DNA from: Comamonadaceae bacterium
Lineage (GTDB): Bacteria; Pseudomonadota; Gammaproteobacteria; Burkholderiales; Burkholderiaceae_C
Reading direction: 5' to 3'
Assembly (NCBI GenBank): GCA_947373105.1
Contig: CANBWK010000003.1
Span: forward strand, 1-64,000
Length of the DNA: 64,000 bases
The translations under genes were made by a program, and so were the position numbers. Below the pieces are notes generated by a model that had not been told where the DNA came from, did no database searches, and saw only the letters and a list, made by a program, of their open reading frames with translations. Positions 1-9,586 of this stretch are shown here, one piece after another; positions within the stretch are counted from its first letter, which is position 1, and each line of letters starts with the position of its first letter.

Positions 1-174
1 TAGACACAAGCGAACGATGCGCTAAATTCGATCGGTAAACTTCCACATTGTCGGGACATTTCTGCTTAGGTTGCCCTATCCTACATCTGATACTAAATTA
101 GTATTTTTAGTTTCCAACTGTGCAAGGAATGAAAGCGCTTTTAAATCTAGCTTCGTAAGCGGCTAGTCGGCGAT

Positions 175-1161
175 CTATTCGGACTTGATGCCCTGTTCCT
201 TGATGATGCGGCCCCACCTCGCATGGTCGCCTGCCAGCATGGTCCCCAGTTCCTCGGGCGTGCCGGCAAGCAGCTCATTCCCGCCTTTGGTCACTTCCTG
301 TTGGATGAAGGCTGGCTCCTTGAGGGCAACCTTCAGCGCAGCGCCAAGCTTGGCGACGATTGGCGGTGGAGTACCCGCAGGCGCCAGCAAACCAACCCAG
401 CCTTGCGCATCAAAGCCGCTAACTCCCTGTTCAGCCAAGGTAGGTACATTGGGAATCGCCGGCGAACGCTTTGTCGATGTCACACCGACAGCCTGGACTT
501 GCTTGTCCAGAATCAACCTTCCACCGCTTGAAACGCCGGTGATTGAGAGTGCCACACGGCCTGAAAGCAGGTCGGGCACAGCGAGCGCCGTACCCCGGTA
601 AGGAATGTGAACGATGTCCAGCTTAAGAGTGCTCTTGAGATACTCTCCTGTCAGGTTATGCATGCTGCCAGCACCGGTGCTCGCATAGCTCAGGGCCCCA
701 GGCGTTTGCCGCGCGCCTTTCACCAGATCAGCGAGACTTCCTATACCGGCCTGGTTGGAAGCGATGATGACCAGGGGCAAGTTGGCAATACTTCCAACTG
801 GGACGAACGACTTGAAAGGATCGTACGGGACGGCGCGAAGGTGGGGTGAAATCGTCAACGGACCCGAGTCGATCAGTCCGATTGTGTATCCGTCGGGATC
901 GGCCTTGGCTAACAATTCAGCCCCGAGCGTCTGGGCGGCACCGGGCCGGTTATCGATCACCACGGGCTGCCCCAATACCTTGGACAGTCCAGGCGCAAGG
1001 CCACGGGAAAGGATGTCAATTGACCCGCCGGGCGGATAGCCGATCAACAGCTTGATGGGTCTCGATGGCCAGTTATCGGCTGATTGCGCCGAGGTAACCG
1101 TCGGCATCACCGCCATGAGTGCCAACGACAGTAGCCCGGGCGTCAGTTTCAATCTATTCAT
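175..1161 (-). CDS. Bug/TctC-family tripartite tricarboxylate transporter substrate-binding protein
   Basis: Signal peptide followed by WPSRPIKLLIGYPPGGSIDILSRGLAPGLSKVLGQPVVIDNRPGA, the typical Bug family N-terminus. Confidence 0.93.
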   Translation of the reverse strand: MNRLKLTPGLLSLALMAVMPTVTSAQSADNWPSRPIKLLIGYPPGGSIDILSRGLAPGLSKVLGQPVVIDNRPGAAQTLGAELLAKADPDGYTIGLIDSGPLTISPHLRAVPYDPFKSFVPVGSIANLPLVIIASNQAGIGSLADLVKGARQTPGALSYASTGAGSMHNLTGEYLKSTLKLDIVHIPYRGTALAVPDLLSGRVALSITGVSSGGRLILDKQVQAVGVTSTKRSPAIPNVPTLAEQGVSGFDAQGWVGLLAPAGTPPPIVAKLGAALKVALKEPAFIQQEVTKGGNELLAGTPEELGTMLAGDHARWGRIIKEQGIKSE

Positions 1162-1583
1162 TTTGTCTCCTGGTAATTAACGAGAACTGGCGTTATCAAC
1201 GAAGTCCGCGACTCAAGCGACTGGCGTGCGCTGCTGCACACCCACCTGGTCAAATCGACGTCGGCGCCAACAAGTCTGGCCTTACCAAGGCCTGTGCAGC
1301 GGCAAAGCGAAGCGCCCGCTTGTAGCCAGCCTCTTCGACGAATGTGCCGTCGGCCACCACCATGCAGCGAGTGCGTTGTCCGTAAAGTCTATCCGCACGT
1401 TTTGACAGGCTTTGAATTAATCTGTTACGTCGCGCGTGAGACACAGTTCTGTTAGCTCACCAAGGTATTCCCTAGGCTACAGGAGCCTTTGAATCTCTAT
1501 ACTTATTTTCGACACAGGTAAGCGCCATTACGATCTTGTGCATTTGTCTGCTGTTTCAACATCAAAACTCAAGGAGACTTTTC

Positions 1584-2816
1584 ATGAGCTATTTTTCGAT
1601 TTCCTGCTTAAAACAGGGTTCATGGCGAAAACTTGCTTTGACACTGGCTTTGGCAGTGCCTGTTATTTCGAGCGCGGCAGAAGAAGAGGTTCCATTTTGG
1701 GCTATCGGCATGCCCAAAGATGGTCCAGGCAAAACGCTAGCTCCCGTGCCTTCCTACCCAATTCCCACCGCTGCAGATCAATTGCCTGTGGCCAAAATCA
1801 AACTGCCTCCGGGCTTCAAAGCCGAAGTCTGGGCTAGTAATATCTTGGACGCACGGGGCATGCGCCAGGGTGACAAGGGTACGGTCTTTGTGAGCTCTTT
1901 GTTTGTAGCGGGAAAAATCTACGCGGTGCAAGACCAAGGAGGCAAACGTGAAGTGAAAACCATTGCAAAAGACTTGTTCTTGCCCAACGGGATTGAGTTC
2001 CACAAAGGCTCCTTGTTTGTCGCAACCCCCAAAGAGATCACCCGCTACGATAACATCGAAGCAAATTTAGACAACCCTCCCAAACCCGTGATGATTTACG
2101 ACAAATTGCCGGGCCAAGTGCCTCACGGCTGGAAGTTCATCAAGATCGGCCCTGACGGAAAACTTTACGTACCCACAGGCGCACCTTGCAATATTTGCGA
2201 ACGTACCGACGGCTTCATGCAGATCGCAAAGATGAATCTGGACGGTAGCAACGTGGAAGTGGTGGCCAAAGGTGTTCGCAACACTGTCGGCTTTGACTTT
2301 GACCCCAAAACCGGTGACCTCTGGTACACCAACAATGGCCGCGACTGGTTGTCTGAAGACCTGCCCAATGACACACTGAACCGAGTGGGCAAACCCGGCA
2401 AGGATGATTTTGGCTACCCTTATTGCCACCAAGGCAATATGGCTGACCCGCAATATGGGTGGGGAAAGGATTGCAGCCAATTCACGCAACCAGCAGCGAT
2501 GACCGGCCCCCATGCAGGCACCTTGGGCATGCGTTTTTACACCGGCAAAATGTTCCCCGCCAAATACCGAAATGCCATCTTCATGGCACGCCATGGTCCT
2601 TGGAACCGCACCAAAAAATACGCGGCTGACATCATGGTGGCTTGGCCGGACGGCAAAGGCGGCATCGCCAAGATGGAACCCTTCTTGACCGGATTGGTTG
2701 AAAACAACGAGTACCTGGGACGCCCCGTTGATGTCCTGGTCTTGAAAGACGGCTCGATGCTGGTATCTGACGACCACAACGGCGCCATCTACCGCATCAG
2801 CTACAAAGGGACTTGA
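1584..2816 (+). CDS. PQQ-dependent sugar dehydrogenase (glucose/sorbosone dehydrogenase-like), exported
   Basis: Signal peptide, LPPGFKAEVWASN, NGIEFHKGSLFVA, GVRNTVGFDFDPKTGDLWYTNNGRDW, RHGPWNRTKK. The ATG at 1584 has an AAGGAG RBS; the listed 1536 start is longer. Confidence 0.87.
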   Translation: MSYFSISCLKQGSWRKLALTLALAVPVISSAAEEEVPFWAIGMPKDGPGKTLAPVPSYPIPTAADQLPVAKIKLPPGFKAEVWASNILDARGMRQGDKGTVFVSSLFVAGKIYAVQDQGGKREVKTIAKDLFLPNGIEFHKGSLFVATPKEITRYDNIEANLDNPPKPVMIYDKLPGQVPHGWKFIKIGPDGKLYVPTGAPCNICERTDGFMQIAKMNLDGSNVEVVAKGVRNTVGFDFDPKTGDLWYTNNGRDWLSEDLPNDTLNRVGKPGKDDFGYPYCHQGNMADPQYGWGKDCSQFTQPAAMTGPHAGTLGMRFYTGKMFPAKYRNAIFMARHGPWNRTKKYAADIMVAWPDGKGGIAKMEPFLTGLVENNEYLGRPVDVLVLKDGSMLVSDDHNGAIYRISYKGT

Positions 2817-3430
2817 TGCTCACAGACAGCATCGGACTCAGCCAGAGGGTTGCCCAATTTTGGGCAGCCCTCTGGCTTTGTATCCCCTGCTTTGTGCAGG
2901 CGCAAAGCGTCCCAGAACGATTCAAAGCCATCTGCCAAAGTTGTCATGGTGAAGGTGGGGTCAGCACCATAGCGTTAACGCCATCCTTGGCCGGCCAGCC
3001 TTCGTTCTATGCTGTGACTCAACTCTTCTTATTTCGGGAAGGACGGCGCAGTAACTTTTTGATGACGGCCATGGCCAAAGGCATGAGCGACAGTGATTTG
3101 CGCGCATTTTCAGAATACATTGGCAAGTTGCCATCGCCCCCGGCTACCTCCATGGAAGGACTGGTGGCACAACGCATGAGTCGAGGGGCTAACCTGGTCC
3201 AAGAACACCGTTGTGCATCGTGTCACGGTGCCGATTTTTCAGGGGGCAAACAAGTCGCACGGCTGGCTAATCAGCGTGAAGACTACTTGCTGCAAACCTT
3301 GATAGGGTTTCAATCGGGTGAACGGCTGGGCTACACCACCGCAATGAACGAAACTTTGGTCGGCATAACCGCTGAGGGTTTGCAAGACATTGCTTACTAC
3401 TTGGCGAATGCTCCGAGGGCTAAGCCTTGA
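2816..3430 (+). CDS. di-haem c-type cytochrome (cytochrome c4-like)
   Basis: Two CxxCH motifs (CQSCH, CASCH); signal peptide; TGATG overlap with the upstream dehydrogenase stop codon. Confidence 0.9.
   Translation: MLTDSIGLSQRVAQFWAALWLCIPCFVQAQSVPERFKAICQSCHGEGGVSTIALTPSLAGQPSFYAVTQLFLFREGRRSNFLMTAMAKGMSDSDLRAFSEYIGKLPSPPATSMEGLVAQRMSRGANLVQEHRCASCHGADFSGGKQVARLANQREDYLLQTLIGFQSGERLGYTTAMNETLVGITAEGLQDIAYYLANAPRAKP
2840..2877 (+). promoter_or_regulatory. 18-bp stem-loop (one G.T wobble) inside the cytochrome 5' coding region
   Basis: AGCCAGAGGGTTGCCCAA-TT-TTGGGCAGCCCTCTGGCT. Confidence 0.7.
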
Positions 3431-3621
3431 CGTATTGAGAATTAACTAATTCAACACAAAATCTTGAGAATATTTTTACTCGCATTGAAAAATATTGACA
3501 ATAAGTAAGACTTGCTGGATACGCTTTAGCCATTGCATATCTGAAAATCTAAATGCTTAGGCTCATTGATTATCGTCATTTCGAGTCATATTAGCTGGTA
3601 AGTATTCTCTAAAAAAATTAA

Positions 3622-5709
3622 ATGAAAAAAATTTATTGGATTAGTATCTTGTCTTTGCTTAGCGATGCGGTGCAAGCTCAAAATACCGAAGAAGTGACGG
3701 TGCAAAGCGGCAGACTTACACAAAAGCAATTTGATGCGCCAGCTTCGTTACGGGTGATTGAGGGGGGTGCGATCCGCGACGCTGGAGCGCAGATTAACTT
3801 GTCTGAAGTGTTGGCGCAGGCCCCCGGCGTGGTGGCACTAAACCGCAACAACTACGCCCAGGATGTGCAGATTTCGATCCGTGGCTTTGGCGCGCGATCG
3901 GCTTTTGGTTTGCGCGGCATCCGCCTAATCACTGATGGCATCCCGGCCACCACGCCAGATGGCCAAGGCCAAGCTTCCACAGTGAGCCTAACTTCGGCAG
4001 AACGCATTGAAGTGCTGACCGGACCCTTGGCCCAGCTGTATGGAAACTCCGCCGGTGGCGTGATTCAAACTTTTACCCGCGAAGCCGGTGCGCAGCCCGA
4101 AGCCCAAGTCTCAAGCAACATGGGCAATTACGGCTTGCGGCGCAACGACCTGCAACTCAGCGGTCGCTCGGGCAATGTGGGCATCGTGGCCGACTACAGC
4201 ACCTTTGACATTGAAGGATACAGAAAAAACAGCGCCGCGCAACGCAAGCAATTCAACGCAGTGGTCACAACGCAACTGCAAGACGCCACAAGGCTCAAAT
4301 TGATTGCAAATGTGTTTGATATGCCATTTGCGCAGGATCCGCTGGGCTTAACGGGCGCGCAATTAAAAGCGGATCCGACGCAGGCCGGAACAGGCGCGAT
4401 CACCAACCGAACTCGTAAATCGGTCAAGCAAAATCAGTTGGGTGCTGTCTTGGATCACAACTTCGGCAACGATGTAGAGATGCAGTGGCGTGCTTACACA
4501 GGCACACGGGACAATGCGCAATACCAAGCCAGCTCAAGTTGGGTTGGTCTCAGCCGCGATTTCAATGGTTTAGGCGGGCAGATCAAAGGTAAAGTTCGCG
4601 ACGCTGCTAACGGCCCGATGGACTGGGTGATCGGAGTTGATTTAGACCGGTCTTCAGAGCGACGCCAAGGCGGCGCTGCATTGGCTGGAGAAAAGTCAGG
4701 CGTACTGTCGAGTAATCAACTGAACCAAGCTTCCAACAACGACGCTTTTGGACAACTGAACTGGAACTGGATCGATGCCCAAAGGCAAAACCCTTATACC
4801 TTCACGGCTGGCGTTCGACGCAGTCAGGTGCAGTTGCAAAACACCGATGATCTGGGTACAGGTTCAGGCAAAGTTAATTACGCAGCCACCTCGCCGGTTT
4901 TGGGCGCGACTTGGCATGCATTAAATACCCTCAATGTGTATGCGAACTGGGGCCAGGGTTTTGAAACACCCACGCTGGCCGAAGCTGCTTACACCGTGCA
5001 AAGTAACGCCATTAAAAGCTTGTTCAACGCCAACCTGTTGGCTTCGCGCAGCCAGCACAGCGAAGCCGGTTTGAAATGGACGCCCACATCAGCGACCCGT
5101 GTGGATGCGGCTTTCTTCCATATCGCCACCGACAACGAGATCGTCACTCTGCTAAGTAGTGGCGGAAAGACGGCCTACAAAAATGCGGCCAAGACCCAGC
5201 GTGATGGCGCTGAGTTGGCTTTGAAAAATGACTGGACGCCGCAATGGCGAACGCAATTGTCCATGGCGTGGTTGCGCGCGGTCTATGCGTCTGATTTCAC
5301 ATCGGGCACCAATGCCATCACCTCGGGCAAGCGCATGCCCGGCATTCCCGATCAACAACTGTTTGCTTCAGTGCAGTGGGCCGACCAGGGTTTTGCATCC
5401 AAAGCCAATCCCAGAACGTTGGGTTGGTCGGCTTCTGCTGACTGGATCGCACGATCCAACCTTTGGGCCAACGATTTGAACACTGCCGATGCACGCGTGG
5501 CTGGCTTTGGGCAAGTCAATTTGCGAGTGCGGTATCGTCAAATGTTGGGCTCATTGCGAGCAGAATTGTGGGCAGGTATTGATAACGTGATGGACAAACA
5601 AACTGTGGGTTCGGTTATCGTCAATCAAGCAGCTGTCCAATATTTTGAGCCGGGGTTACCGCGCAACGCGATTTTAGGCGCATACCTGTCAATACCCCTT
5701 GGACCTTAA
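3622..5709 (+). CDS. pqqU: TonB-dependent receptor, PqqU/YncD-like (putative PQQ uptake)
   Basis: Plug-domain sequence NYAQDVQISIRGFGARSAFGLRGIRLITDGIPATTPDGQGQ...EVLTGPLAQLYGNSAGGVI resembles E. coli YncD as I remember it; lies between two PQQ-type dehydrogenase genes. Confidence 0.72.
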   Translation: MKKIYWISILSLLSDAVQAQNTEEVTVQSGRLTQKQFDAPASLRVIEGGAIRDAGAQINLSEVLAQAPGVVALNRNNYAQDVQISIRGFGARSAFGLRGIRLITDGIPATTPDGQGQASTVSLTSAERIEVLTGPLAQLYGNSAGGVIQTFTREAGAQPEAQVSSNMGNYGLRRNDLQLSGRSGNVGIVADYSTFDIEGYRKNSAAQRKQFNAVVTTQLQDATRLKLIANVFDMPFAQDPLGLTGAQLKADPTQAGTGAITNRTRKSVKQNQLGAVLDHNFGNDVEMQWRAYTGTRDNAQYQASSSWVGLSRDFNGLGGQIKGKVRDAANGPMDWVIGVDLDRSSERRQGGAALAGEKSGVLSSNQLNQASNNDAFGQLNWNWIDAQRQNPYTFTAGVRRSQVQLQNTDDLGTGSGKVNYAATSPVLGATWHALNTLNVYANWGQGFETPTLAEAAYTVQSNAIKSLFNANLLASRSQHSEAGLKWTPTSATRVDAAFFHIATDNEIVTLLSSGGKTAYKNAAKTQRDGAELALKNDWTPQWRTQLSMAWLRAVYASDFTSGTNAITSGKRMPGIPDQQLFASVQWADQGFASKANPRTLGWSASADWIARSNLWANDLNTADARVAGFGQVNLRVRYRQMLGSLRAELWAGIDNVMDKQTVGSVIVNQAAVQYFEPGLPRNAILGAYLSIPLGP

Positions 5710-6059
5710 TGCGTTCGCGTCGTGTCCCAAAGAATTGCATCAGCCATCAAAAAATAGAGCCCGCTAATCCATTAAGTATTTTTACGGCGGACGAGCATGC
5801 CAAAGGCATAGACATCGCTATTTTCCAAGCACTTGAAATACTTGTTTCCCTCACCACAACAAATATGGAAAACCAAAGAAACCAAGAGCTTTGAAATTGC
5901 AATTAGCTAAAGGCGGGGATTATTTGCTACTTTTTAAATTAATAATTATCTCCGAGTAAACTACATTTACTATTCATTACAGGGTAAACGCCAATCACTT
6001 TAGCGACTCCATATGCGTGTAATTTTGCTTCTAATGTAACCCTCTAGAAGGAGACATTT

Positions 6060-7295
6060 GTGAAACTTAAACCCTTTACCCACACACTACAAAAAACTAT
6101 GCTGGCATTCGGCTTGGTTATCTCGAGTGCATCTTTTGCGCAAGCCCCTGCAGCACCTCCTGCTTCGGCTATTCCTCCAACTTGGGCGCAAGGCAGGACA
6201 CCAGAACAAGTGGCGTTGAACTTGGTGCCTCATCCACCAGGCATGACTGCATTGCCTGATAATGAAATTCCTACTGACAAACTCAGAGTACCAGCTGGCT
6301 TCAAAGTTGAATTATGGGCAAGTGGAATGCCTAATGCGCGTTCCATGGTGCAGACTCCAAAAGGCACTCTGTTTGTTGGCACACGTTTTCCTGGTAACGT
6401 TTATGCAGTCATTGAAAAAGACGGCAAGCGCGAAGTCAAAACCATTGCTAAAGGTCTGCACCGCCCCAATGGTGTTGCATTCAAAGATGGTTCTTTGTAT
6501 GTGGCCGAGTTGTCTAGAATCATTCGCTACGACAACATCGAAGCCAACTTAGACAATCCGCCAGCACCTGTTGTGGTGTTTGACGCATTACCTAAAGACG
6601 AAGCCCATGGATGGAAATTCATGAAGCTCAGCCCTGATGGCAAATATTTGTATTTCCAAATTGGTACACCTGCCAACATCACCGTGCAGCCTGTGACCCA
6701 CGCTGTGATTGTTAGGTTAAACCTCAAAACCAATATTTTGGAAAGAGTTGCTGAAGGCGTTCGCAATAGCGTAGGCATGGACTTCCATCCTGTGACCAAA
6801 GAGTTGTGGTTTACCAATAATGGTCGTGACTGGGTAAATGATGATTTACCAAATGACACACTGCACCGCTTGACTCGAAAAGGCATGAACTTTGGCTATC
6901 CTTTCTGCCACCAAGGCGATTTGTTAGATCTGGATTTTGGCAAAGGCCGTTCTTGCGACGAATTCGACAAACCAGTTTTAAAGATTGGACCTCACGTTGC
7001 AGCTTTGGGCATGCGCTTTTATACCGGCAAACAGTTCCCAGCTGAATACACCAACAACATTGTCATAGCAGAACATGGTTCTTGGAACCGTACCAAGAAA
7101 ACTGGCTTTGATGTTGTGCGTGTAGCACTCGATGCCAAAGGCAATGTCACCAAGAAAGAAGTTTTTGTATCGGGCTGGGTGCAAGGCGAAGAATTTTGGG
7201 GTCGCCCAGCTGACGTCCATGTCATGAAAGACGGTTCTATGCTGGTGTCTGACGACGTAGCTGGAGCTATTTTTAGAATTTCTTATAGCAAATAA
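6060..7295 (+). CDS. PQQ-dependent sugar dehydrogenase (sorbosone dehydrogenase-like), paralogue of 1584-2816
   Basis: VPAGFKVELWASGMPNARSM, GVRNSVGMDFHPVTKELWFTNNGRDW, EHGSWNRTKK; GTG start with an AAGGAG RBS. Confidence 0.87.
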   Translation: MKLKPFTHTLQKTMLAFGLVISSASFAQAPAAPPASAIPPTWAQGRTPEQVALNLVPHPPGMTALPDNEIPTDKLRVPAGFKVELWASGMPNARSMVQTPKGTLFVGTRFPGNVYAVIEKDGKREVKTIAKGLHRPNGVAFKDGSLYVAELSRIIRYDNIEANLDNPPAPVVVFDALPKDEAHGWKFMKLSPDGKYLYFQIGTPANITVQPVTHAVIVRLNLKTNILERVAEGVRNSVGMDFHPVTKELWFTNNGRDWVNDDLPNDTLHRLTRKGMNFGYPFCHQGDLLDLDFGKGRSCDEFDKPVLKIGPHVAALGMRFYTGKQFPAEYTNNIVIAEHGSWNRTKKTGFDVVRVALDAKGNVTKKEVFVSGWVQGEEFWGRPADVHVMKDGSMLVSDDVAGAIFRISYSK

Positions 7296-7891
7296 TGTTT
7301 TTTCATATTTCAAAGGCCATTCAGGGAGTGGCCTTTTTTTTAACAAGTCTTTTAGCCATCCAAGCTTGGGCAGCGCCAGATGCTATTGCAGGAAAAGCTA
7401 AAGCCCAGGTCTGTTCTGCCTGCCATGGTGAAAACGGTATATCCACTGTTGCGGGAACCCCGCATTTGGCTGCGCAACCACCACTCTCAATCTTTTATCA
7501 ACTGCTTCAGTTCCGCGATCAACGTCGAAAAGGTGGCAGCATGGAAGCCATTGCTGCCACGTTGTCCGAACAAGATATGCGTGATATCGCTGAACATTAC
7601 AGTGCACAGACACCTCCCTCGCCTCTTGCTGGTGGCGATGCCACAAAAATTTCACAGGGTCAAAAAATTGCGCAGCAACAATATTGCTCGTCTTGCCACG
7701 GGGCTCAGTTGCAGGGACAAAAACATGTTCCGCGTCTATCCGGACAATCAACCGAATATTTCGTGACGCAGTTGCGCAACCTACGTTCTGGTGCGCGCGC
7801 TGATATGGATGGAACCATGGCAAGCGCTGCAAGAAGTCTGACAGATGAGGAAATTGAAGCTATGGCGACTTATGCGCGAAGCTTGCCTTGA
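7295..7891 (+). CDS. di-haem c-type cytochrome, paralogue of 2816-3430
   Basis: CSACH and CSSCH motifs; signal peptide; start overlaps the upstream stop (TAATG). Confidence 0.9.
   Translation: MFFHISKAIQGVAFFLTSLLAIQAWAAPDAIAGKAKAQVCSACHGENGISTVAGTPHLAAQPPLSIFYQLLQFRDQRRKGGSMEAIAATLSEQDMRDIAEHYSAQTPPSPLAGGDATKISQGQKIAQQQYCSSCHGAQLQGQKHVPRLSGQSTEYFVTQLRNLRSGARADMDGTMASAARSLTDEEIEAMATYARSLP
7312..7341 (+). terminator. intrinsic-terminator-like hairpin inside the cytochrome 5' coding region
   Basis: AAAGGCCA-TTCAGGGAG-TGGCCTTT with an uninterrupted run of eight T. Confidence 0.72.
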
Positions 7892-8146
7892 AAAACTTCT
7901 AGTAATGGCTGAGCTGAGTTTTTCTTGTCAGGCTTAAACATTCAAAAAAAGTCTAAATCATGTGATTGTTCAAAGCGGTCGCCTATAGGTCATAGTCCCT
8001 TAAAAGTCTCACCCATCTGCCCAAGCACTAAAACTGATTACACGCGGTATTCACGGTTTTCAATTCCGATGCTGTTCCATATGACAAGTTCTGTGTCCGC
8101 GCATGTAGATTCAAACTTTCTCCCTAACTGGATCGAGCCACACACC

Positions 8147-8248
8147 TAGCGCCTAATTTTTCGCGTGCAAAGTGACAGCGCCGAGTGCAAAATCTACAAA
8201 AGTGCTGGAAAAATTGTAATTTACAATTTTTGGTCAATTACACGAAAT
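8147..8248. repeat. ~100-bp direct repeat, copy A
   Basis: tagcgcctaatttttcgcgtgcaaagtgacagcg...cacgaaat, roughly 85% identical by eye to 12336-12438. Confidence 0.75.
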
Positions 8249-8314
8249 ATTACACGGTGGCTATTTTTAACTATAAGTTATTGATTTATATAGGTATTTT
8301 ACGAGCCTGGATTT

Positions 8315-8359
8315 CTGTTAATCCGTAGGTCCCTGGTTCGAGCCCAGGTCGAGGAGCCA
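8315..8359 (+). pseudogene. truncated tRNA-Asn(GTT) 3' end (anticodon loop to CCA)
   Basis: CTGTTAATCCGTAGGTCCCTGGTTCGAGCCCAGGTCGAGGAGCCA. The anticodon loop CTGTTAA, T-arm and CCA are present; the 5' half and the 5' side of the anticodon stem are absent. Confidence 0.75.
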
Positions 8360-8367
8360 ATAAATTC

Positions 8368-8401
8368 AAGGGGTTACATGCTTAAGCGTGTAGCCCCTTT
8401 T
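8368..8401 (+). terminator. intrinsic terminator downstream of the tRNA remnant
   Basis: AAGGGGTTACATGC-TTAA-GCGTGTAGCCCCTT followed by T residues (14 bp with two wobbles). Confidence 0.75.
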
Positions 8402-8500
8402 CATTTTTCCCACCGGATCAGCGATTTGTCCATCTGTACTGCTCAACATAAGCAGTTTTATGGCATCGATTCGCAAAAAGTGCGATGGTTTTTTCATCCC

Positions 8501-9586
8501 TTATTTAGGGAAGGGCTGAATTTGCTCAACAGCATCGCGCCCTATTCGAAAAGCCATTAAGTCCTCACCCAAAACTAGCGGGCCTGCGTAGGTGCGACGG
8601 GTCATTTCCAAAACATCCTTTTCAGTCACAGGCGGTATCTTGGCTGTACCAAGCAACACGAAGTGGTAAAACACTGCCAATTTAGGTTGCACCCTAGTGA
8701 ATACTTGACCCGCCTCTTCAGGTTTGGTGTGATGATCTAGGATGACTTGATAAACGGGGTCCTTGAGTAGTTCTGGCTGCACTGCGGCTACTTGATGAAT
8801 CAGCAGATCGACTCCGGCAGAATGTTTAATCAGATTTTCGCTGGGCTTAGTGTCACCAGACACCACAACAGAGCGTCCGTCGTAGTCAATGCGATAACCA
8901 AAGGCCGGTTTTAGCAAATCACCGTGATCAACTTCTATGGCAGTCACCTTCAGGCCATTACTTTGATAGACCACGGCTGCGTCGGCAACTTCGTTAGCCT
9001 GAACGGCAACATTTTCGGCTTTGAGGCCTTGATCGGCAATTCGTTGCTTGATGTCCCACTCGTAGGCTTTCTCCAAGTAGCCCATCATGGGGCGTGTACC
9101 CGCAGGTCCCCAAATACGGAAGGGACCCTTGCGCTGCGCATAAGCCGCCTCAAGCCATCCAGTTAACCAAAGATCAGGAATGCCAACGATGTGATCGGAA
9201 TGCAAATGCGTGATGAATACCGCATCAATGGCGCCAAGTTTGATCCCCAGTTGAAATAAGCGTTGTGTAACGCCGCGCCCACTGTCGATTAACAAATTCT
9301 GACCGCCAGCCTGCACTAAAACAGCTGGGCCGAATCGCCTCATGGTTGGCGGCGGTGATCCAGTTCCCAACAATGTGACACGAAATTCTTGATTTTGAAG
9401 GGGTGGGTGAATCGCTGTTGCGACTTGTGCTTGCACTGAAATCACCACAATCGAATTTAATATTATTAAACCAAGCAAGGATTTAAGTTGATGGCTCTTC
9501 AACGTAAAAAGGCGTCTCAACAGAGCTCTGCATGTCTGCTGAAATTGAACAAGTGACAAAATATTTTTCTTTAAAAAATTAAACAT
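8501..9586 (-). CDS. MBL-fold metallo-hydrolase (RNase Z / arylsulfatase-like family)
   Basis: THLHSDHIVGIPDLWLTGW metal-binding motif; VVSGDTKPS; DHHTKPEEA. Confidence 0.85.
   Translation of the reverse strand: MFNFLKKNILSLVQFQQTCRALLRRLFTLKSHQLKSLLGLIILNSIVVISVQAQVATAIHPPLQNQEFRVTLLGTGSPPPTMRRFGPAVLVQAGGQNLLIDSGRGVTQRLFQLGIKLGAIDAVFITHLHSDHIVGIPDLWLTGWLEAAYAQRKGPFRIWGPAGTRPMMGYLEKAYEWDIKQRIADQGLKAENVAVQANEVADAAVVYQSNGLKVTAIEVDHGDLLKPAFGYRIDYDGRSVVVSGDTKPSENLIKHSAGVDLLIHQVAAVQPELLKDPVYQVILDHHTKPEEAGQVFTRVQPKLAVFYHFVLLGTAKIPPVTEKDVLEMTRRTYAGPLVLGEDLMAFRIGRDAVEQIQPFPK

Follow-up and report, generated by a model that had tools for sequence, protein, structure and literature searches.

Two cytochrome genes in the genome of a Comamonadaceae bacterium both begin with a strong RNA hairpin, located at the same place with respect to the dehydrogenase gene that precedes them. 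The question arises as to why two hairpins unrelated in sequence should occupy the same position, and what they do to the expression of the genes on either side. The window, i.e., the whole 64-kb stretch of DNA analyzed here, carries two paralogous gene pairs, in each of which a GSDH-like dehydrogenase gene (PF07995) has a diheme cytochrome c gene downstream of it, as identified with Pfam models.

Organization of the two gene pairs

The features of the region are as follows:

1584–2816, + strand: dehydrogenase 1, GSDH-like, periplasmic, probably PQQ-dependent (PF07995, E 2.6e-11; stop codon TGA at 2814–2816)
2816–3430, + strand: diheme cytochrome c 1 (PF13442 and PF00034; signal peptide MLTDSIGLSQRVAQFWAALWLCIPCFVQAQ)
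2840–2877, + strand: copy 1 hairpin, 17 bp, loop of 4, within signal-peptide codons, weak U-tract
3622–5709, + strand: TonB-dependent receptor, PqqU-like, between the two operons (best NCBIfam model PqqU)
6060–7295, + strand: dehydrogenase 2, paralogue, 52% identical (PF07995, E 8.1e-14)
7295–7891, + strand: diheme cytochrome c 2 (PF13442 and PF00034)
7312–7336, + strand: copy 2 hairpin, 11 bp, loop of 3, within signal-peptide codons
7334–7341, + strand: T8 (U-tract) of the intrinsic-terminator-like element of copy 2

In both pairs, the stop codon of the dehydrogenase is overlapped by the ATG of the cytochrome (TGATG at 2814–2818 and TAATG at 7293–7297), from which co-transcription of the two genes can be inferred. 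Upon inspecting the sequence, a Shine-Dalgarno-like AAGGGA was found ahead of the cytochrome ATG in copy 1 and none ahead of that in copy 2, which suggests that the second cytochrome may be translated via re-initiation by ribosomes coming off the dehydrogenase.

The receptor encoded at 3622–5709 scored 437 bits against the model for the PQQ importer PqqU, which is below the cut-off of 1200. In the genome, which is 94.6% complete, no pqqE was detected above the cut-off and no match to pqqC was obtained, the control for the latter search being uninformative. A locus for PQQ scavenging is likely (cf. PMC12124388). Further downstream, at about 8315–8359, lies a tRNA-like 3' fragment (GTTAATCCGTAGGTCCCTGGTTCGAGCCCAGG..), 45 nt of which recur unchanged close to the end of contig C84. 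No complete tRNA was detected in the window by ARAGORN, and this fragment may be the remnant of an integration site.

The two hairpins of the window

The first-pass annotation of this DNA placed hairpins at 2840–2877 and 7312–7341, beginning 17–24 nt into cytochrome reading frames that overlap the dehydrogenase stop codons. Refolding yielded the same hairpins at both junctions, 24 nt (copy 1) and 17 nt (copy 2) from the A of the ATG, and both are strong in comparison with shuffled sequences. Copy 1, to which 18-bp arms had been attributed, consists of 17 perfect pairs including one G-U, with a loop of 4 and the tail UUUGUAUCC; it is indeed devoid of a clear U-tract (tail UUUGUAUC) and therefore lacks this feature of intrinsic terminators. 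The 50-nt segment has a folding energy of -37.5 kcal/mol, its shuffles averaging -14.5 (z -8.1), and no other hairpin on either strand of the window is as strong. Copy 2 has a loop of 3 and 11 pairs if the A-U pairs formed with the T-run are counted, or 8 without them, the T-run extending through 7341, in agreement with the 8-bp arms and eight T previously described. Its 38-nt segment has an energy of -15.1 kcal/mol (z -4.4), and in the scan of the window no other hairpin with a dG of -11 or below has as T-rich a tail. Copy 2 thus carries the U-tract of an intrinsic terminator, in the form of a conserved U8, and a stable GC-containing stem-loop is present on the transcript strand in both copies. 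An Rfam covariance-model search of positions 1–9000 returned nothing up to E 1.

Since no start codon further down leaves room for a complete signal peptide ahead of the CxxCH motif in either copy, both hairpins lie inside coding sequence, as had been claimed. The possibility that the start of the cytochrome was misannotated, the true start being located 3' of the hairpin, is excluded for the window copies on the same grounds.

Recurrence and position of the hairpin in related genomes

The search for homologous loci covered 90 genomes of the genus, 201 of the family, and named GTDB genomes, among them Limnohabitans, Polynucleobacter, Rhodoferax, Variovorax, and some Alphaproteobacteria. A reading frame with a CxxCH motif was present within about 900 nt downstream of 184 of the 209 dehydrogenase hits. 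Removing the duplicates left 170 junctions forming 18 clusters (single linkage, 70% identity), and 235 close co-directional junctions taken from up to 10 kb of flanking DNA at the same loci, in which the genes were called by a simple longest-ORF caller, served as controls. The region from -10 to +110 around the dehydrogenase stop was analyzed with a compact-hairpin scorer against dinucleotide shuffles, giving p-values with a floor of about 0.01–0.02. This scorer replaced a free-window local-fold scan, whose long windows picked up unspecific folds where the DNA was GC-rich.

Hairpins with p ≤ 0.02 were found at 50% of the 170 dehydrogenase-cytochrome junctions vs. 6.8% of the 235 controls, and the median energy of the best hairpin was -18.0 vs. 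-6.9 kcal/mol. The Mann-Whitney p-value of this comparison (7e-27) is too small because related sequences are not independent; when one junction per cluster was retained, 11 of 18 had a hairpin. Below 60% GC, the proportion was 72%, vs. 4% in the controls. When 70-nt windows spanning -365 to +545 were scored, only those centred on +20 and +55 showed the excess, apart from a weak shoulder reaching about +125, and hairpins were detected in about 0–3% of the windows in the upstream coding region. The median start of the hairpin is +23 from the dehydrogenase stop, or +17 in the case of hairpins with a U-tract. No significant hairpin was found at 66 of the 170 junctions (about 39%), which belong mostly to GC-rich genomes of Variovorax, Ramlibacter, and similar organisms and to one Limnohabitans-type subfamily (L010, L018, and relatives) with bulged or weak stems.

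Hairpins of unrelated sequence recur at one place across the subfamilies. Those of the copy 1 type have the stem AGCCAGAGGG..CCCTCTGGCT and those of the copy 2 type AAGGCCATT..GTGGCCTTTTTT; a further type located within the signal peptide has GGGGTGGCC..GGCCCCCCTTTTTT, and others, such as GGCACCCGC..GCGGGTGCCTTTTTTT and GGGGCCTC..GAGGCCCC, are intergenic. The stems of copy 1 and its relatives are highly stable (-24 to -38 kcal/mol), the U-tract being absent in copy 1 and most of its subfamily, while some elements of the survey look like strong canonical terminators with U6–8. In L049–L054, several junctions carry two tandem hairpins, e.g., GATACAGGC..GCCTGTATC, then CGGGGCCTC..GAGGCCCCG, located after the dehydrogenase stop and ahead of the cytochrome start.

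The first-pass annotation had suggested that the position is under selection, and this is strongly supported by the survey: the hairpins recur beyond chance in comparison with the controls, and most subfamilies show one of unrelated sequence just past the dehydrogenase stop. The reference point has to be corrected, however. The inside of the cytochrome gene had been taken as the anchor, whereas in several relatives the hairpin precedes the cytochrome start, as in L041–L048, where canonical terminators are intergenic and located at an equal distance from the dehydrogenase stop. The fact that intergenic hairpins, with the cytochrome start lying 3' of them, are found at a similar distance from this stop indicates that the element is anchored to the 3' end of the dehydrogenase gene. 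In the subfamilies of the window, the cytochrome gene overlaps this dehydrogenase element.

Junctions of another kind were also considered. Quinoproteins of the XoxF/alcohol-dehydrogenase type (TIGR03075) from the same bacterial family (L209–L258) that precede a cytochrome also have strong hairpins close behind the stop, mostly intergenic, with p ≤ 0.05 in 16 of 22 cases; when no cytochrome follows, the count is 12 of 28. The hairpin may thus be common more generally among abundant periplasmic dehydrogenases, the cytochrome case being its clearest form.

Selection on the signal-peptide codons

The coding sequences were compared with a synonymous-codon null in which the codons were redrawn from the usage of the locus itself. 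Among the cytochromes with embedded hairpins, a set preselected for a significant hairpin, 54% were at p ≤ 0.01; among all the 122 cytochromes starting within 10 nt of the dehydrogenase stop, the proportion was 29%. The signal peptides of the dehydrogenases themselves gave 0% at 0.01 and 4% at 0.05 under the same null. Copies 1 and 2 are both at the floor of this test (p 0.003).

In all 19 aligned members of the copy 2 subfamily, the hairpin extends from +17/18 to +40/41 relative to the dehydrogenase stop, and at least five T are invariant. The stem covaries between Limnohabitans-like and Polynucleobacter relatives: pairing is preserved in 92% of the cells, and two pairs have changed on both sides (G-C to A-U, and U-A to C-G). 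The covariation score was 0.219 vs. 0.147, and none of 500 shuffles scored as high, although the relatedness of the sequences inflates this control. In the comparison between the Limnohabitans-like and Polynucleobacter groups, the nine hairpin codons show 74% amino acid identity, with 75% identical codons where the amino acid matches; the signal peptide outside the hairpin shows an amino acid identity of 9–16%, and in the mature cytochrome, where amino acid identity is 66%, the proportion of identical codons is no more than 36%. The signal peptide of this subfamily is therefore conserved only where it encodes the hairpin. The codons concerned (7313–7339 in the window, alignment A2) specify KAIxGVAFF, a conserved amino acid motif of copy-2-type cytochromes. 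This motif seems to be imposed by the RNA hairpin, in which case RNA structure would constrain the protein sequence. The close subfamily of copy 1 comprises eight aligned members with one compensatory pair (G-C to A-U), and its sequences are too similar for a covariation test. Where the cytochrome frame starts ahead of the hairpin, as in the subfamilies of the window, the signal-peptide codons are shaped to encode it.

Terminator features and strand asymmetry

A U-tract, defined as at least 6 T in 8, follows 45 of the 104 significant hairpins vs. none of the 30 significant control hairpins, and it is present in 15 of the 16 significant copy-2-type members. An A-rich 5' flank occurs in just 3 of the 104, so that the hairpins are terminator-like on the mRNA strand only. 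A comparison of the stability of the significant hairpins on the two strands (+ more stable in 68 cases, - in 5) was set aside as evidence, since it was on the + strand that they had been selected. A significant hairpin with a U-tract was found after the dehydrogenase at 44 of 164 loci and after the cytochrome at 1 of 164; the terminator that one would expect to close the operon is thus placed ahead of the cytochrome instead.

Proposed mechanism and alternative explanations

We consider it reasonably probable that the hairpin acts as a leaky terminator and/or a 3'-end protector of the dehydrogenase message, keeping the cytochrome below the dehydrogenase. This is the best available mechanism, and it is favored by the U-tracts on the mRNA strand, the lack of a U-tract terminator after the cytochrome, and the intergenic canonical terminators of some relatives. 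The hairpin, which typically starts about 10–30 nt past the dehydrogenase stop, would be clear of a ribosome positioned on the stop or the overlapping ATG. Most transcripts would end at the hairpin or be trimmed to it, yielding abundant dehydrogenase, and the cytochrome would be carried by readthrough or uncleaved transcripts only. Copy 2, with its U-tract, would be a partial, leaky intrinsic terminator, and copy 1 either a weak terminator or a stabiliser blocking exonucleases. Since copy 1 and most of its subfamily have no U-tract, the terminator reading is weak there, and the role of copy 1 may be protective. What the sequences show is the hairpin itself, its position, the selection on synonymous codons, the covariation of the copy 2 type, the strand asymmetry, and the lack of a terminator after the cytochrome; that the hairpin terminates or protects, how efficiently it does so, and which protein ratio results are what we infer from them.

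Among the alternatives, a pure 3'-end stabiliser, through which transcription runs while the cytochrome part decays first and the dehydrogenase segment is protected as in puf, deserves some credit although we think it rather unlikely. It fits the very stable stems without U-tracts of copy 1 and its relatives, and the puf hairpin is documented (PMC10253847), but it requires none of the U-tracts present on the mRNA strand in nearly half of the significant hairpins and in nearly all those of the copy 2 type. These tracts are also left unexplained by a translational device, in which the hairpin would slow ribosomes in the signal-peptide region for the sake of secretion or tune the initiation of the cytochrome. 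That the window hairpins are in signal-peptide codons just beyond the initiation footprint is in line with such a device; in other subfamilies, however, the hairpin comes before the cytochrome start, its distance from the dehydrogenase stop being unchanged, and the signal peptides of the dehydrogenases have none, which makes this explanation improbable.

A full terminator followed by a separate cytochrome promoter, i.e., two independent transcription units, would account for the elements resembling strong canonical terminators with U6–8. It is very improbable, since a promoter inside the dehydrogenase gene would be needed in the window and in many relatives, where the cytochrome ATG is 5' of the hairpin, and only a few tens of nucleotides separate the terminator from the start in the intergenic cases. 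As to whether the hairpins are due to chance, are a side effect of GC-rich Ala/Leu codons in the signal peptide, or represent a DNA palindrome (operator), GC-rich signal peptides can fold by chance, and no significant hairpin was found at 66 of the 170 junctions. We give this hardly any credence in view of the synonymous-codon null and the dehydrogenase signal-peptide control, along with the control junctions, the compensatory and G-U changes, the directional T-tract, and the unrelated sequences between subfamilies. The DNA operator in particular was rejected because the sequences are unrelated between subfamilies while pairing is kept by G-U and compensatory changes.

Within the leaky-terminator reading, very efficient termination at copy 2 would call for an additional mechanism, such as coupled translation, for any cytochrome to be made. 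A ribosome re-initiating at the overlapping ATG might melt the signal-peptide hairpin and thus license the transcription of its own gene. It is a speculative and unlikely idea that the hairpin is such a translation-gated terminator without a leader peptide, a design which would then have evolved more than once in operons for periplasmic dehydrogenases and cytochromes, the unrelated XoxF-type operons among them. If so, the output of cytochrome would sense the translation (or secretion) of the pair.

At these junctions, a selected RNA element is imposed on protein-coding sequence. The data suggest a simple, repeatedly evolved means of fixing the enzyme-to-cytochrome stoichiometry in periplasmic oxidation operons, and terminator-like hairpins within coding sequences are not necessarily false positives.

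Comparison with known systems

No described dehydrogenase-cytochrome hairpin was found in the literature searched, most subscription journals being outside this search, and an earlier description is possible. The intercistronic hairpin of the Rhodobacter puf mRNA (pufBA-LMX) has been reported to be a segmental mRNA-stability element (PMC10253847). In both systems, a hairpin lies at the 3' end of the upstream gene of a polycistronic unit (presumed here from the gene overlap), follows an abundant upstream product, and would set the upstream/downstream ratio of components of an electron-transfer complex. Here, however, U-tracts are present in many cases, the downstream coding sequence may itself contain the hairpin, and the genes bear no relation to puf. 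Partial termination between the genes of an operon has been found to lower downstream expression at the ioTTS of Methanococcus maripaludis (PMC10450193), which resembles the partial termination and reduced downstream expression proposed here, but the present element is bacterial, consists of a hairpin with a U-tract, keeps a fixed position relative to the dehydrogenase stop, and in many cases overlaps the next coding sequence.

Intrinsic terminators internal to ORFs have been described in Escherichia coli (e.g., in ispU), where premature RNA 3' ends occur along with ORF-internal ones having a 6-bp stem and eight U (PMC7815308). The stem-loop with U8 internal to the transcript is common to both cases; single genes are involved in E. 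coli, whereas here the position is conserved across divergent operons while the sequence changes. Lastly, in ribosome-controlled attenuators such as that of the pil1 leader peptide of S. gallolyticus (PMC3894217), a terminator is melted by the ribosome, and a terminator hairpin in the path of the ribosome could likewise be melted here. The separate short leader frame of such attenuators is absent from the junctions described here, however, and it is the structural cytochrome gene itself that crosses the hairpin.
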